NCBI RefSeq assembly: GCF_030284385.1
Contig: NZ_CP127221.1
Coordinates: forward strand, 248,001 to 312,000
DNA: 64,000 nt
Source of the DNA: Altererythrobacter rubellus
GTDB taxonomy: Bacteria; Pseudomonadota; Alphaproteobacteria; Sphingomonadales; Sphingomonadaceae
Reading direction: 5' to 3'
Below are positions 8,361 through 11,738 of this stretch, in pieces. Every line of letters begins with the position of its first letter. Positions within the stretch are counted from its first letter, which is position 1. The notes beneath the pieces are model-generated. The model ran no database searches. It worked only from the letters and a program-made list of their open reading frames with translations, and was not told where the DNA came from. Both the position numbers and the translations under genes were made by a program.

Positions 8361-10376
8361 TTAGCCACGCAAATCTGGCGCGGTTGCTTCTTCCTTCAAC
8401 ATCACAATCGCCTCATCAAGGCTCATCACGCGTTGATGTTTCTCGCCCAGCGTACGGATGGCAACTGTGCCCTCCTCAGCTTCACGCATGCCGACGACAA
8501 GCAGATGCGGAACCTTCGCGAGCGAATGTTCGCGCACCTTGTAGTTGATCTTCTCATTGCGGAAATCGCTTCCCACGCGAATGCCAGCGGCTTCAAGCTT
8601 GGCGACGGCCTGCTTGCCATAATCGTCAGCGTCGGACGTGATCGTCGCGACCACAGCTTGCACCGGTGCAAGCCACACTGGTATGCGCCCGGCATAATGT
8701 TCGATCAGAATGCCGATGAAGCGCTCATATGACCCGAAAATCGCGCGGTGCAGCATGACCGGGCGATGTTTGGCACCATCCTCGCCGATATAGGTTGCAT
8801 CAAGGCGCTCTGGCAGAACGCGGTCAGACTGGATCGTGCCCACCTGCCATGTGCGACCGATTGCATCGGTCAGATGCCATTCGAGCTTGGGCGCGTAGAA
8901 AGCGCCTTCGCCCGGCAATTCCTCCCAGCCATATTCTTCGGTTGCCATGCCCGCTTCGACCACGGCATCGCGCAGCTCTTGCTCCGCCTTGTCCCAATCC
9001 TCATCCGAACCAAAACGTTGTTCAGGCCGCAGCGCGAGCTTGATGTGATAGGTGAAGCCGAAATCCTTGTAGACACCGTCAGCTAGCTCGCAGAAGGCGC
9101 GGACTTCATCGACAATCTGGCTTTCCGTGCAGAAGATATGCGCGTCATCCTGCGTGAACTGGCGCACGCGCATCAAGCCGTGCAGCGCGCCATGGGGTTC
9201 GTTGCGGTGACAGCAACCCATTTCACCCAAGCGGATCGGTAGTTCTTTATAGCTCGTGATACCTTGCTTGAAGACCAGCACATGCGCGGGGCAGTTCATC
9301 GGCTTCAGCGCCATCCAGTCAGCATCGCCGCTGATGATTTCGCCTTCATCCTCAGTGTTCGGAACCTCGTCAGGGATGACGAACATGTTCTCGCGATACT
9401 TGCCCCAGTGGCCCGACTGCTCCCACTGGCGTGCGTCCATAACCTGCGGCGTCTTGATCTCCTGATAGCCGGCTCCGTCCATCTTGCGGCGCATATAGGC
9501 CTCAAGCTCGCGCCAGATCTTGTAGCCATTGGGATGCCAGAAGACGCTCCCGTGGGCCTCTTCCTGCAAGTGGAACAAGTCCATCTCGCGGCCCAGCTTG
9601 CGATGATCGCGCAAGGCGGCTTCTTCCAGCCGATGAAGGTGCGCGTTCAATTGCTTTTTGTTGAGCCAGCCAGTGCCATAGATGCGCGTCAGCTGCGCAT
9701 TGCTTTGATCGCCGCGCCAATAGGCGCCGGCAACACGCATCAGCTTGAAAGCATCGGGATCGAGCTTGCCAGTGCTGGCCAAGTGCGGGCCGCGGCACAT
9801 GTCCAGCCAGGCCCCGTCGCTGCCCGGTTCGCCTGACCAATAGACAGTCAGCTCTTCATTTTCGGGCAGTTCCTTTGCCCACTCCGCCTTGAATGTCTCG
9901 CCTTCGGATACCCATTTGGCGATCAAATCTGCACGCGACCAGACTTCGCGCACCAGCGGCTTGTCCGCCTTGATGATATCGCGCATTCTTTCTTCAATCG
10001 CAGGGAGGTCTTCGCTGCTGAACGGCTCGCGAGAGGCAGGCGCCATTACATCGTAATAGAACCCGTCGTCCGTCGCAGGGCCAAAGGTAATCTGCGTGCC
10101 CGGCCACAATGCCTGCACCGCTTCGGCGAGCACGTGCGCGTAATCATGCCGCGCCAGCTCAAGAGCATCAGCTTCATCTTTTGATGTAATTAGCGCGAGC
10201 TCTGCATCACCGTCAAACGGGCGATTGAGATCACGCACCTCGCCGTCAACGCGGGCCGCCAATGCAGCTTTGGCAAGGCCGGGGCCAATCGCCGCGGCAA
10301 GGTCTGCCGGGGTCGAGCCCGGCTCGACTTCGCGCACTGATCCATCGGGCAGGCTGATCTTCAGAAGTTCGGTCAT
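8361..10376 (-). CDS. thrS: Threonyl-tRNA synthetase
   Basis: Charges tRNA-Thr with threonine. The 671-residue protein has the full bacterial layout: an N-terminal TGS domain (LLKISLPDGSVREVEPGSTPADLAAAIG), the editing domain with the HDYAH motif (around residue 77) and a downstream MCRGPH segment, the class II catalytic core with MNCPAHVLVFK, HRNEPHGALHGLMRVRQFTQDDAHIFC and VMLHRAIFGSYERFIGILIEH, and the anticodon-binding domain (PVQAVVATITSDADDYG to the end). The ATG at 10376 is used; an in-frame TTG directly precedes it. The gene is preceded by about 145 nt of structured leader and a Thr-rich leader ORF, which suggests control by charged tRNA-Thr through attenuation. Confidence 0.97.
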   Translation of the reverse strand: MTELLKISLPDGSVREVEPGSTPADLAAAIGPGLAKAALAARVDGEVRDLNRPFDGDAELALITSKDEADALELARHDYAHVLAEAVQALWPGTQITFGPATDDGFYYDVMAPASREPFSSEDLPAIEERMRDIIKADKPLVREVWSRADLIAKWVSEGETFKAEWAKELPENEELTVYWSGEPGSDGAWLDMCRGPHLASTGKLDPDAFKLMRVAGAYWRGDQSNAQLTRIYGTGWLNKKQLNAHLHRLEEAALRDHRKLGREMDLFHLQEEAHGSVFWHPNGYKIWRELEAYMRRKMDGAGYQEIKTPQVMDARQWEQSGHWGKYRENMFVIPDEVPNTEDEGEIISGDADWMALKPMNCPAHVLVFKQGITSYKELPIRLGEMGCCHRNEPHGALHGLMRVRQFTQDDAHIFCTESQIVDEVRAFCELADGVYKDFGFTYHIKLALRPEQRFGSDEDWDKAEQELRDAVVEAGMATEEYGWEELPGEGAFYAPKLEWHLTDAIGRTWQVGTIQSDRVLPERLDATYIGEDGAKHRPVMLHRAIFGSYERFIGILIEHYAGRIPVWLAPVQAVVATITSDADDYGKQAVAKLEAAGIRVGSDFRNEKINYKVREHSLAKVPHLLVVGMREAEEGTVAIRTLGEKHQRVMSLDEAIVMLKEEATAPDLRG

Positions 10377-10434
10377 CAAATTCGTCCGTCTCGTCTAGGC
10401 GGTGTTTGCAAGCGCCACTGCCACAAGCAAAGGC

Positions 10435-10510
10435 ACACCGAAAGGGCGGTGTCACGTGATTAAGCAAATTTTCGGGAGGCTGACACCCAAGCCACCCGAA
10501 TTCGGGTGGC
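10435..10510 (-). promoter_or_regulatory. Candidate threonine attenuator hairpins upstream of thrS
   Basis: Read on the minus strand behind the Thr leader stop, three structures can form. The first is a perfect 20-nt palindrome at 10491-10510 (arms GCCACCCGAA / TTCGGGTGGC). The second is a candidate terminator stem ACACCG / CGGTGT at 10435-10452 followed by the T-rich GCCTTTGCTTGT. The third pairs GGTGTCA (10481-10487) with TGACACC (10448-10454), which would use up one arm of the terminator stem, as expected of an antiterminator. The pairings are seen in the sequence; their roles are inferred. The T-run after the terminator is weak. Confidence 0.55.
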
Positions 10511-10521
10511 GGGCCTCGCGA

Positions 10522-10593
10522 CTAAACCGCGACCAACCGCCCCCGGATATCCGAGGTGGTAGTTGTGGTGGTGGTAGTCATCAGCTTGGCCAT
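10522..10593 (-). CDS. Threonine leader peptide (thrS attenuator leader, 23 aa)
   Basis: A 24-codon ORF that reads MAKLM, then eight consecutive Thr codons (ACT ACC ACC ACC ACA ACT ACC ACC at 10555-10578), then SDIRGRLVAV and TAG. Translation would stall at the Thr run when Thr-tRNA is short. The ORF ends 11 nt before a 20-nt palindrome and about 145 nt before the thrS start. There is no Shine-Dalgarno before the ATG, but a promoter at 10601-10629 would start transcription at or very near the ATG, giving a leaderless leader peptide as known for trpL of Sinorhizobium. The composition, position and gene downstream agree with ribosome-mediated attenuation. I do not know a described thrS attenuator of this type. 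Confidence 0.7.
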   Translation of the reverse strand: MAKLMTTTTTTTTSDIRGRLVAV

Positions 10594-10600
10594 GACAAGG

Positions 10601-10629
10601 CATATAGGCACGGGTGGTTGCGATGTCAC
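10601..10629 (-). promoter_or_regulatory. Predicted promoter of the thrS leader
   Basis: On the minus strand GTGACA (10624-10629, five of six −35 bases) is followed by a 17-nt spacer and TATATG (10601-10606, four of six −10 bases). Seven bases separate the −10 box from the leader ATG, so transcription should begin at about the A of the ATG. Confidence 0.55.
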
Positions 10630-10747
10630 TACCATCGCTTGCACCACGCAGCTTCGGAAAGCATCCGCTCCATTTTGGAAAGTGAGCTTGCCAAATTTCC
10701 GAATCGATGTAAACCAACCTTTCCATAAAAGAAAGGAAGCTTGACTG

Positions 10748-10927
10748 ATGAAAAATATCTACAAAGGGCTGGCAGGCGCTGCTCTGATCCTCATCGTTGC
10801 GGCAGTCACAAAAAGCATGGGCGTTAGCTCGAACATATCGTTCAGCATCGTCACCGCCATTTCAGGCTTTGCCGCGCTGTGGATCTCTCACGGCGCGAAG
10901 GGAAGCGGCAATCGGTGCGCGCAATGA
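10748..10927 (+). CDS. Small membrane protein (59 aa)
   Basis: The ORF begins MKNIYKGLAGAALILIVAAV and has two hydrophobic segments, residues ~8-20 and ~29-46 (NISFSIVTAISGFAALWI), so a two-helix inner-membrane protein is likely. GAAAGGAAG lies 8-10 nt before the ATG. Its stop overlaps the start of the next gene as ATGA (10924-10927), which implies translational coupling. It is the first gene of a three-gene unit with a larger membrane protein and an XRE-type regulator. I do not recognise a family; the conserved-looking unit structure supports that it is real. Confidence 0.65.
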   Translation: MKNIYKGLAGAALILIVAAVTKSMGVSSNISFSIVTAISGFAALWISHGAKGSGNRCAQ

Positions 10928-11526
10928 CTTCAGATTCGCCTTCCTCTACTACCAAACTGTGTCTTGGCGCTGCCGCATCGTCTTTAATTGGCGCGCTCGC
11001 GCTGATGTTTGTGTGGAAGTCTGACGCGATCAACACGACGACAGCATATGTGCTCGCCACAATCCCGGTCAGCCTGATGGTGTTTGCCTTTGTCAAAGGT
11101 CTGTCGCTTTCGAAAGATAACAGCCTTGCCACGCATCGTTATCTGCTGCGTATGGCGCTGACCATGGCGTTCTATCTGATCACGCTAATGCTGGCGGAAC
11201 ACTTTATTGACGGGCGCGGCCTGACCGGACCGGTGGCAGCGCTCCTCGCGTTCCTTCCGGGCCTCTCCTTTGCCGGCGTTGTCTGGGTCTTTGGCGGGCT
11301 CATCATGGAGGAGAAAGACGAGTTCTTCCGCATGCTTTATGTGCGGCAGGGTCTGATCGCGACGGGTATTTCCTTCACGCTCGCGGCGATCTGGGGTTTC
11401 CTGGAAACCTACAGTATCGTTGAACCCGTGGCCGCATTCTGGTGGCCCACGATCTGGTGCCTTGGACTGGGTGTTGGCGCGATCTTCAACAAGATCAAAT
11501 ACGGCACCTACGGAGAGATCCGGTGA
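10924..11526 (+). CDS. Multi-pass membrane protein of unknown function
   Basis: From the ATG at 10924 the protein has 200 residues and about five to six predicted membrane helices (for example LCLGAAASSLIGALALMFVW, TTAYVLATIPVSLMVFAFV, LLRMALTMAFYLITLMLAEHF, GPVAALLAFLPGLSFAGVVWVFGGLI, and two near the C-terminus). The cytoplasmic loop EEKDEFFRMLYVRQGLIATG is a recurring feature of small sphingomonad and other bacterial membrane proteins coded next to a short HTH gene; their function is not known to me. It overlaps the small gene upstream by four bases and the XRE gene downstream by four bases (GTGA), so all three are probably made from one mRNA. An upstream in-frame start at 10879 would overlap the first gene and is less likely. 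Confidence 0.8.
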   Translation: MTSDSPSSTTKLCLGAAASSLIGALALMFVWKSDAINTTTAYVLATIPVSLMVFAFVKGLSLSKDNSLATHRYLLRMALTMAFYLITLMLAEHFIDGRGLTGPVAALLAFLPGLSFAGVVWVFGGLIMEEKDEFFRMLYVRQGLIATGISFTLAAIWGFLETYSIVEPVAAFWWPTIWCLGLGVGAIFNKIKYGTYGEIR

Positions 11527-11714
11527 ACAATCGCCTCAAGGTCCTCCGAGCAGAACGTGACTGGAGCCAGCAGGATCTGGCCGACCGGCTGGAAGTCAGC
11601 CGCCAGTCAGTCAATGCGATCGAAAAGGGGCGCTATGATCCGTCATTGCCACTCGCCTTCAAGATCGCCGATGTCTTCGATCTCGCGATCGAGGAAATCT
11701 TCAACCGCGACTAG
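11523..11714 (+). CDS. XRE-family helix-turn-helix regulator (63 aa)
   Basis: A minimal DNA-binding protein made of a single HTH_3/Cro-C1 domain: NNRLKVLRAERDWSQQDLAD, then RLEVSRQSVNAIEKGRYDPSLPLAFKIADVFDLAIEEIF. The recognition helix lies around SRQSVNAIEKGRY. It uses a GTG start that overlaps the stop of the membrane-protein gene (GTGA, 11523-11526) with GGAG a few bases upstream. Such short regulators (YgzD/YozG-like in Gram-positives) often accompany a membrane protein gene. An autoregulatory role for this operon is likely, but no operator could be identified by eye. Confidence 0.88.
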   Translation: MNNRLKVLRAERDWSQQDLADRLEVSRQSVNAIEKGRYDPSLPLAFKIADVFDLAIEEIFNRD

Positions 11715-11738
11715 CTCCTACCCACAAGGCAGACGAAG

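Follow-up and report, generated by a model that had tools for sequence, protein, structure and literature searches.

The threonyl-tRNA synthetase gene thrS is controlled in Escherichia coli by a protein-dependent mRNA operator and in Firmicutes by the T-box, a tRNA-binding RNA, and neither of these is a Thr leader peptide. Leader-peptide attenuators on other aminoacyl-tRNA synthetase genes are already published, namely on pheST, trpS, leuS and hisS, as well as on cysS in Rhodobacterales, as set out in the relevant sections of three reports (PMC1262725; PMC2965389; PMC8632094). A cognate leader peptide with a terminator and an antiterminator is described before pheST in gamma-proteobacteria and, from in silico work, before trpS and leuS in Streptomyces (PMC1262725), while in Bacilli a His leader precedes hisZ and a hisS paralogue (PMC2965389). 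The nearest described system is uORFC-8-2, also from Alphaproteobacteria, in which a short ORF with cognate codons and stems lies before cysS and ribosome-mediated attenuation is predicted (section on uORFC-8-2 in PMC8632094). In another alphaproteobacterium, Sinorhizobium meliloti, the trpL RNA is described as starting at the leader AUG and acting in transcription attenuation (PMC7298713).

The locus considered here lies in a 64,000-nt stretch of Altererythrobacter rubellus DNA, which was analysed as a whole and is called the window (Table 1). Its thrS was identified by TIGR00418 (621 bits, over the cut-off) and is the sole such match in its genome. On the same strand, the leader ORF MAKLMTTTTTTTTSDIRGRLVAV stops 145 nt upstream of thrS, and comprises 23 codons and a TAG, with codons 6-13 all encoding Thr (eight consecutive, using ACT, ACC and ACA). 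The palindrome GCCACCCGAATTCGGGTGGC (20 nt) begins 11 nt past the leader stop. This arrangement, with eight consecutive Thr residues in three codons and the palindrome 11 nt further on, had been described in a sequence-only reading of the window and is correct letter by letter. The downstream gene uses the leader's own amino acid, as in an attenuator. From sequence conservation and modelled folding, we consider it probable that ribosome-mediated attenuation couples thrS expression to charged tRNA-Thr. Known Rfam RNAs, including the T-box, were ruled out by the lack of a match to their covariance models: near thrS no Rfam family reached its gathering score, the sole weak match being cold-seep-1 (E 0.29) on the other strand. 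The Rfam model of the enterobacterial thr operon leader, which we take to be RF00506, likewise has no match here. Inspection by eye also shows CTTTCC/GGAAAG repeats and TTGTCA-like strings upstream of the leader (window 10718-10736), which are found genus-wide, and the repeats are perhaps control sites of a divergent gene. Beside thrS, a divergent cluster on the + strand (window 10748-11715) appears by eye to encode small proteins, probably of the membrane, along with a helix-turn-helix regulator.

Table 1. Features of the thrS leader region, in window coordinates.
Feature	Position	Strand	Remarks
P1 -35 GTGACA	10624..10629	-	TGAC (positions 2-5), each kept in 95-102 of 102 leader loci
P1 -10 TATATG	10601..10606	-	7 nt upstream of leader ATG; putative leaderless start
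Leader ORF MAKLMTTTTTTTTSDIRGRLVAV	10522..10593	-	Thr codons 10578-10555; Thr run in 84/90 genus loci
Segment 1 CCACCTCGG	10551..10559	-	Partly the last Thr codons; partner segment 2; predicted by RNAalifold
Segment 2 CCGGGGGCGG	10537..10546	-	Partner segment 1 or 3
Segments 3 and 4 (palindrome GCCACCCGAATTCGGGTGGC), helix 3:4	10491..10510	-	
Segment 5 GGTGTCA	10481..10487	-	Partner segment 6; 6 of 7 pairs of 5:6 changed on both sides
Segment X CCCGAA	10471..10476	-	Partner segment 4 (anti-5:6)
Segment 6 TGACACC	10448..10454	-	Helix 5:6, proposed off-structure
Stem 6:7 ACACCG/CGGTGT	10435..10452 (ACACCG 10452-10447, CGGTGT 10440-10435)	-	Terminator-like match here; poorly conserved
P2 -35 TTTCGG	10438..10443	-	TT in 76/76; spacing fixed at 17 nt
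P2 extended -10: TG, G, then CAGTGG	10415..10423	-	TG/T trade-off
thrS, threonyl-tRNA synthetase	8361..10376 (ATG at 10376)	-	TIGR00418

A sample of 100 genomes from the genus yielded a thrS family match in 97, over the cut-off in 92, and 90 loci were analysed. By a rule that asks for a short ORF (10-60 aa) with at least 5 of one residue within 10, a Thr-rich ORF lies ahead of thrS in 82 of these loci, and in two more (L011, L122) the ORF that carries the Thr run lacks its usual stop, for a total of 84/90. A near-identical rule applied to other residues at the same loci found Arg in 31, Ala in 16, His in 6 and the rest in at most 5, while the Thr rule holds at only 5 of 90 loci taken from other families of the class. 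Based on these comparisons the Thr run is more than chance, and a chance origin was ruled out by the residue counts together with conservation in the genus. The leader is absent from six genus loci (L130, L134, L142, L146, L148 and L155); a further genus member (L010) has the Thr leader and retains the stretch ahead of thrS, but is missing segments 3 to 6. Among 80 named loci, most labelled Sphingomonadales and some belonging to the genus sample, 23 have a Thr-rich leader. The carriers include Pelagerythrobacter, Parerythrobacter, Croceicoccus, Altererythrobacter, Erythrobacter, Allopontixanthobacter and Porphyrobacter, as well as four Novosphingobium, Sphingopyxis sp. LC363, Blastomonas, three Sphingomonas-labelled and two less precisely named records.

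Across 85 leaders there are 5-10 Thr codons per leader (mean 8.0), written as 424 ACC, 113 ACT, 95 ACG and 45 ACA. All four third letters are in use, so it is the amino acid that is conserved and not the letters; downstream of the run, GGGGGCGG is kept nearly as letters. It could be proposed that the ACC repeat is retained for RNA pairing alone and is never translated, since segment 1 overlaps the last Thr codons. The run extends upstream of segment 1, however, and the start, the stop spacing and the Thr identity are all kept although third letters vary, which leaves this proposal extremely improbable.

The wider distribution of the element was followed with a covariance model, R1, built from 47 rows and 17 pairs. 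R1 matched 103 of 298 family genomes, each of them once, spread over 36 of 96 genera; strict filters apply to model searches that cover more than 40 genomes, so that 103/298 is a lower bound, and under those filters the other 195 family genomes are without a match. In a 385-genome sample of the class there were 4 matches, all within the same family and none outside it. The single R1 match in the window's own genome is the element described here. At 65 of 70 R1 loci, a thrS start motif lies just downstream and is accompanied by a short ORF with 4-9 Thr per 10 residues (only 4 in four loci). In the remaining five, thrS is the next gene in two, its start having been missed by the pattern, and lies one gene further in three.

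The sequence-only reading had also placed a promoter (GTGACA, 17 nt, TATATG) upstream of the leader, with transcription starting at the leader AUG. This site, P1, was fitted on 102 leader loci (the window, 84 from the genus and 17 named others), which gave TGAC at -35, a 17-nt spacer in 98/102, TA at -10 in 102/102 and a gap of 6-8 nt before the start codon. None of the 102 loci has a Shine-Dalgarno-like string upstream of the leader start. Because the fit allowed gaps of 6-8 nt only, a fixed pattern (TGAC-N17..19-TA-N10..12-start) was used as the test. It holds at 84 of 85 genus loci, the window included, compared to a mean of 0.1 and at most 1 in shuffles, and in 8 of 17 loci outside the genus. 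From this conservation, the P1 transcript most likely begins at or adjacent to the leader AUG, as had been read from the letters of the window.

Downstream of the Thr run, the segments can pair in two mutually exclusive ways, as set A (3:4 and 5:6) or as set B (2:3, 4:X and 6:7). Both sets were scored on alignment A1, whose 76 rows were hand-picked from the 102 leader loci; the 26 omitted were near-copies or divergent loci, apart from one with a deletion and one with an insertion. Set A pairs 90.4% of cells (3:4 95.5%, 5:6 85.3%), while versions slid along the alignment pair 35-62%, and set B pairs 88.8% (2:3 93.4%, 4:X 88.6 and 93.8%, 6:7 80.3%), with 43-56% for its slid versions. In cells paired, double-changed cells and covariation score, both sets exceed all 500 shuffles and every slid version. 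Counting the pairs that have double changes tells less: the 7 of set A are reached by 3/500 shuffles and tied by one slid version, and the 8 of set B are reached by 17/500 and tied by two. Alignment A2 consists of 47 of the 76 rows of A1, so that related sequences underlie the counts for P1, P2 and the helices, and kinship among rows makes the base changes in the covariation counts non-independent.

Alignment A3 draws on 60 additional loci, all from outside the genus and 58 of them absent from the model. Of its 61 rows, 60 are full matches, and the last, a second match in L229 that is weak and partial, was kept in the counts. In this alignment, which is fitted to set A, set A pairs 93.3% of cells (3:4 98%) and again surpasses the shuffles and slid versions in cells paired, double-changed cells and covariation score; 5:6 shows double changes, G-C to C-G among them, in 6/6 pairs. 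Set B contributed no pairs to the model and pairs 76.7%, with one slid version tying on double-changed pairs; here 2:3 reaches 92.6% unfitted, 4:X reaches 70, 46 and 84% by part, and 6:7 reaches 67%. Taken together, the two alignments make 3:4, 5:6 and 2:3 firm, 4:X fair and 6:7 weak. RNAalifold applied to the whole of A1 returns only 1:2 and 4:X-type pairs, because the helix sets exclude each other; the 1:2 helix has 87-90% of cells paired in an alignment fitted to the model.

These results change part of the earlier picture, in which GGTGTCA/TGACACC and ACACCG/CGGTGT, which share letters, were the two mutually exclusive stems. GGTGTCA/TGACACC is retained as the conserved candidate off-helix, 5:6. 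ACACCG/CGGTGT is weaker (80% paired in the 76 rows, 67% in the 61), and as the alternative to the off-state it is replaced by the conserved combination of 2:3 and 4:X; it also overlaps the -35 of a second promoter-like site, P2. The expectation that relatives would share the Thr run and covarying stems is borne out, the run being conserved and the stems covarying, and with the P1 start as judged from sequence alone, the attenuation reading is supported.

The spacing of these parts is fixed at one point, with the leader stop codon starting 13 positions past the end of segment 2 in 75/75 leaders that have a stop. Segment 3 begins 8-15 nt after the stop codon, and 8-17 nt (median 14) separate GGCGG from the end of the last Thr codon preceding segment 2, with an additional Thr codon beyond segment 2 in four leaders. 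This spacing of Thr codons, segment 2, stop and segment 3 is the layout of a classical attenuator. A different use of the region would be binding of the leader by ThrRS itself, in autocontrol like that of the E. coli thrS operator, given that the gene is the same and a structured region lies upstream. Such binding would leave the conserved Thr frame with its free third letters, as well as the fixed stop spacing, without explanation, and we regard it as very improbable.

To model the effect of ribosome position under the attenuation reading, each leader was folded to the end of segment 6 with the ribosome footprint blocked (75 of the 76 rows, the other having no stop), and mean pairing values were taken over the 75 rows. 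With the ribosome at the stop codon, 3:4 is at 0.67, 5:6 at 0.59 and 2:3 at 0.01. A stall in the middle of the run gives 2:3 at 0.45, 4:X at 0.21 and 5:6 at 0.29, and a stall on the last Thr codon gives 2:3 at 0.21, 4:X at 0.15 and 5:6 at 0.35, while a stall on the first Thr codon barely alters 5:6 (0.56, compared to 0.57 with no ribosome). Row by row, 5:6 is higher at the stop than at the last Thr codon in 44/75, lower in 11 and within 0.02 in the rest; relative to the mid-run stall it is higher at the stop in 54/75 and lower in 7. As a 75-row average, opposite folds are favoured in the model at the stop and in mid-run or last-codon stalls. In the window's own sequence, 5:6 drops from 0.67 to 0.0 in all stalls, while 3:4 stays at 0.78 and 2:3 and 4:X are at 0.0 in every state, so its loss of 5:6 comes from other pairing.

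From the conserved parts and the modelled folds we infer the transcript start, leader translation, stalling and termination at 5:6 as steps of one mechanism. Transcription from P1 would start at the leader AUG, and ribosomes would load onto the leaderless 5' end. With ample Thr-tRNA, the ribosome would reach the stop and cover segment 2, allowing 3:4 and 5:6 to form, and most P1 transcripts would be halted short of thrS. When Thr-tRNA is scarce, the ribosome would stall in the Thr codons and cover segment 1, so that 2:3 forms and segment 4 is freed for X; 5:6 would then be broken and P1 transcripts would run into thrS. P2, located downstream of 5:6, would maintain a basal supply of thrS.

The output step is where the region departs from a classical attenuator. 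The commonest 8 nt following 5:6 are CTCTTCCG (34/76), and a U-run (at least 5 T in the next 8 nt) follows 5:6 in 2/76 rows and 6:7 in 0/76. Since an intrinsic terminator combines a hairpin with a U-run, the element can be said to work like a classical attenuator without being a classical member, and termination of transcription at 5:6 is suggested by position. In the window's own genome, stem 6:7 is followed by GCCTTTGCTT and scored terminator-like in a looser terminator scan, which over the first 20 kb gave 18 sites compared to 19.8 in shuffles, i.e., no excess. Stem 6:7 was rejected as the main terminator, being weakly conserved and without a U-run in relatives, and its polarity would be wrong.

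It is possible, although somewhat unlikely, that the sensor is the same and the output another, with 5:6 acting through translation, Rho or RNA decay instead of an intrinsic terminator. The lack of a U-run in 74/76 rows fits this view, as does a variant found in six genomes of two genera (L404, L405, L406, L409, L410 and L411), in which the leader is followed by a 168-aa RNase AS-like gene and then by thrS. The RNase AS-like assignment comes from weak matches (NCBIfam E 0.0011, below the cut-off; PDB exoribonucleases E 0.003-0.009). In these six, segment 6 ends 9-14 nt before the RNase AS-like start codon (by eye), beside a purine-rich stretch, and 5:6 could block ribosome binding there. In the main form, however, segment 6 ends 56-88 nt upstream of thrS, too far to cover the ribosome-binding site, which leaves termination or decay.

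The second promoter-like site, P2, overlaps segment 7 and lies downstream of the attenuator, with the layout TT-N4, 17 nt, (C/T/A)A-N-N-G. Its transcript would start about 30 nt before thrS, as judged from this layout. On A1, the TT is invariant and the A at -10 position 2 is present in 75/76 rows. The extended -10 TG is seen in 54/54 rows that lack T at the first position of the -10 and in 1/22 that have it, a trade-off that is the behaviour of an RNA polymerase site, its p value being inflated by related sequences. A hairpin around the P2 -10, which folds better than mononucleotide shuffles (mean z -2.3), was rejected as the main feature because the trade-off fits a promoter. A weight matrix of P2 matches 5/6 genus loci without the leader, 16/57 other loci without the leader (17/57 with a second shuffle draw) and 1/57 thrS coding segments. 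For the operon variants it matches 0/6 before thrS and 1/6 before the RNase AS-like gene; before thrS in these variants, TTGCCT-17 nt-CATAGG or GCATAG was seen by eye only. Within the genus at least, P2 is likely to be a thrS promoter in its own right. Given its place downstream of the attenuator, thrS is probably not controlled by the attenuator alone, which would govern the P1 share, and P2 by itself could serve thrS, a point that counts against the attenuation reading.

A rival suggestion is that P2 is the real thrS promoter and that the P1 leader gives rise to a trans-acting small RNA or peptide comparable to rnTrpL/peTrpL of S. meliloti, its location before thrS being secondary. The conservation of P2 both alongside the leader and in 5/6 genus loci without it agrees with this, and trans roles of a leaderless attenuator RNA are published for trpL (relevant section of PMC7298713). 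Against it, there is one match per genome, with thrS, or a gene and then thrS, downstream in the 70 matched loci analysed, and the spacing of the parts suits an attenuator acting in cis. We therefore view a primarily trans role as improbable and retain attenuation in cis as the preferred reading.

Some Thr leaders on thrS are also found elsewhere in the class. At 90 loci, each from another family (of 113 such families), the residue rule found Thr in 5, Arg in 12, Leu in 9, Ala in 7 and Pro in 5. Three of the five Thr loci have runs of at least 5 Thr, and one of the three is backed by its own family while two are not. The backed one belongs to a family with genomes of ~0.9 Mb (that of G458, loci L367-L391), in which a compact Thr leader such as MKKFMIVFTTTTTTPAGV precedes thrS in 18/25 loci, one of the misses being a locus without upstream sequence. 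By eye, the compact leader consists of a Thr-rich stretch, P[ALSF]G[VL] and a stop, an almost leaderless promoter lies before it, and the post-run codons hold a hairpin. In a 1.2-Mb alphaproteobacterium (L273, family of G428), MRNFIETQINTTTGLTTTTTA lies before thrS and has, by eye, a hairpin on its last Thr codons with a U-rich stretch after it; the single other genome of that family showed no such leader. In a 6.5-Mb alphaproteobacterium (L268, family of G441), MRTHPVLRSTATTTTTATGGRWRMRA lies before thrS; by eye, a promoter-like site immediately precedes it and a GC-rich hairpin follows it, and the leader is absent in 29 further loci of the family. We tentatively entertain, with more reserve than conviction, the idea that Thr-leader control of thrS is a recurrent alphaproteobacterial invention. 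The window's own family would have a relay switch with 5:6 wired to differing outputs, either a stop to P1 transcripts ahead of P2 or closure of the ribosome site of the RNase AS-like gene, and the compact version in the family of G458 would do the same job.

A Thr attenuator on thrS had been presented in the sequence-only reading as a distinct control mode. No Thr leader on thrS was found in a search of the PMC literature, including the relevant parts of PMC4833913 and PMC11109978 (supplementary files and Lopatovskaya et al. 2010 were outside its scope), nor in a term search of PMC6429828, so the claim appears to hold for this gene; it does not hold for the kind of control, which is known for other aminoacyl-tRNA synthetase genes. 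The kind is known, then, and the gene and the build are apparently new. If true, the locus would provide a third mode of thrS control beside the protein operator and the T-box, in which leaderless translation is combined with a series of helices that compete in turn, and a testable system for how ribosome position controls a gene without a U-run terminator. The family has many cultured strains, among them Erythrobacter, Novosphingobium, Croceicoccus and Blastomonas.

Compared with the known systems, the differences lie in the amino acid, the gene and the output. The leaders of pheST, trpS and leuS use other amino acids, and the leuS terminators described in the relevant section carry poly-U tracts (PMC1262725). 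The hisZ/hisS leader is a His leader of Firmicutes that was found through terminators (same topic in PMC2965389), and trpL of S. meliloti, in the part of the report that describes it, precedes a Trp biosynthesis gene and no synthetase (PMC7298713). The uORFC-8-2 leader has two Cys codons, in contrast to about eight Thr codons here, and its two stems end in a U-run; the section devoted to it describes neither a relay of alternative helices nor a second promoter (PMC8632094). Where uORFC-8-2 is defined by tandem Cys codons, a 3' U-run and cysS, the element described here has Thr codons, thrS and no U-run. Taken alongside the cysS case already in print, it would point to control of alphaproteobacterial aminoacyl-tRNA synthetase genes by codons for their own amino acid being commoner than known.
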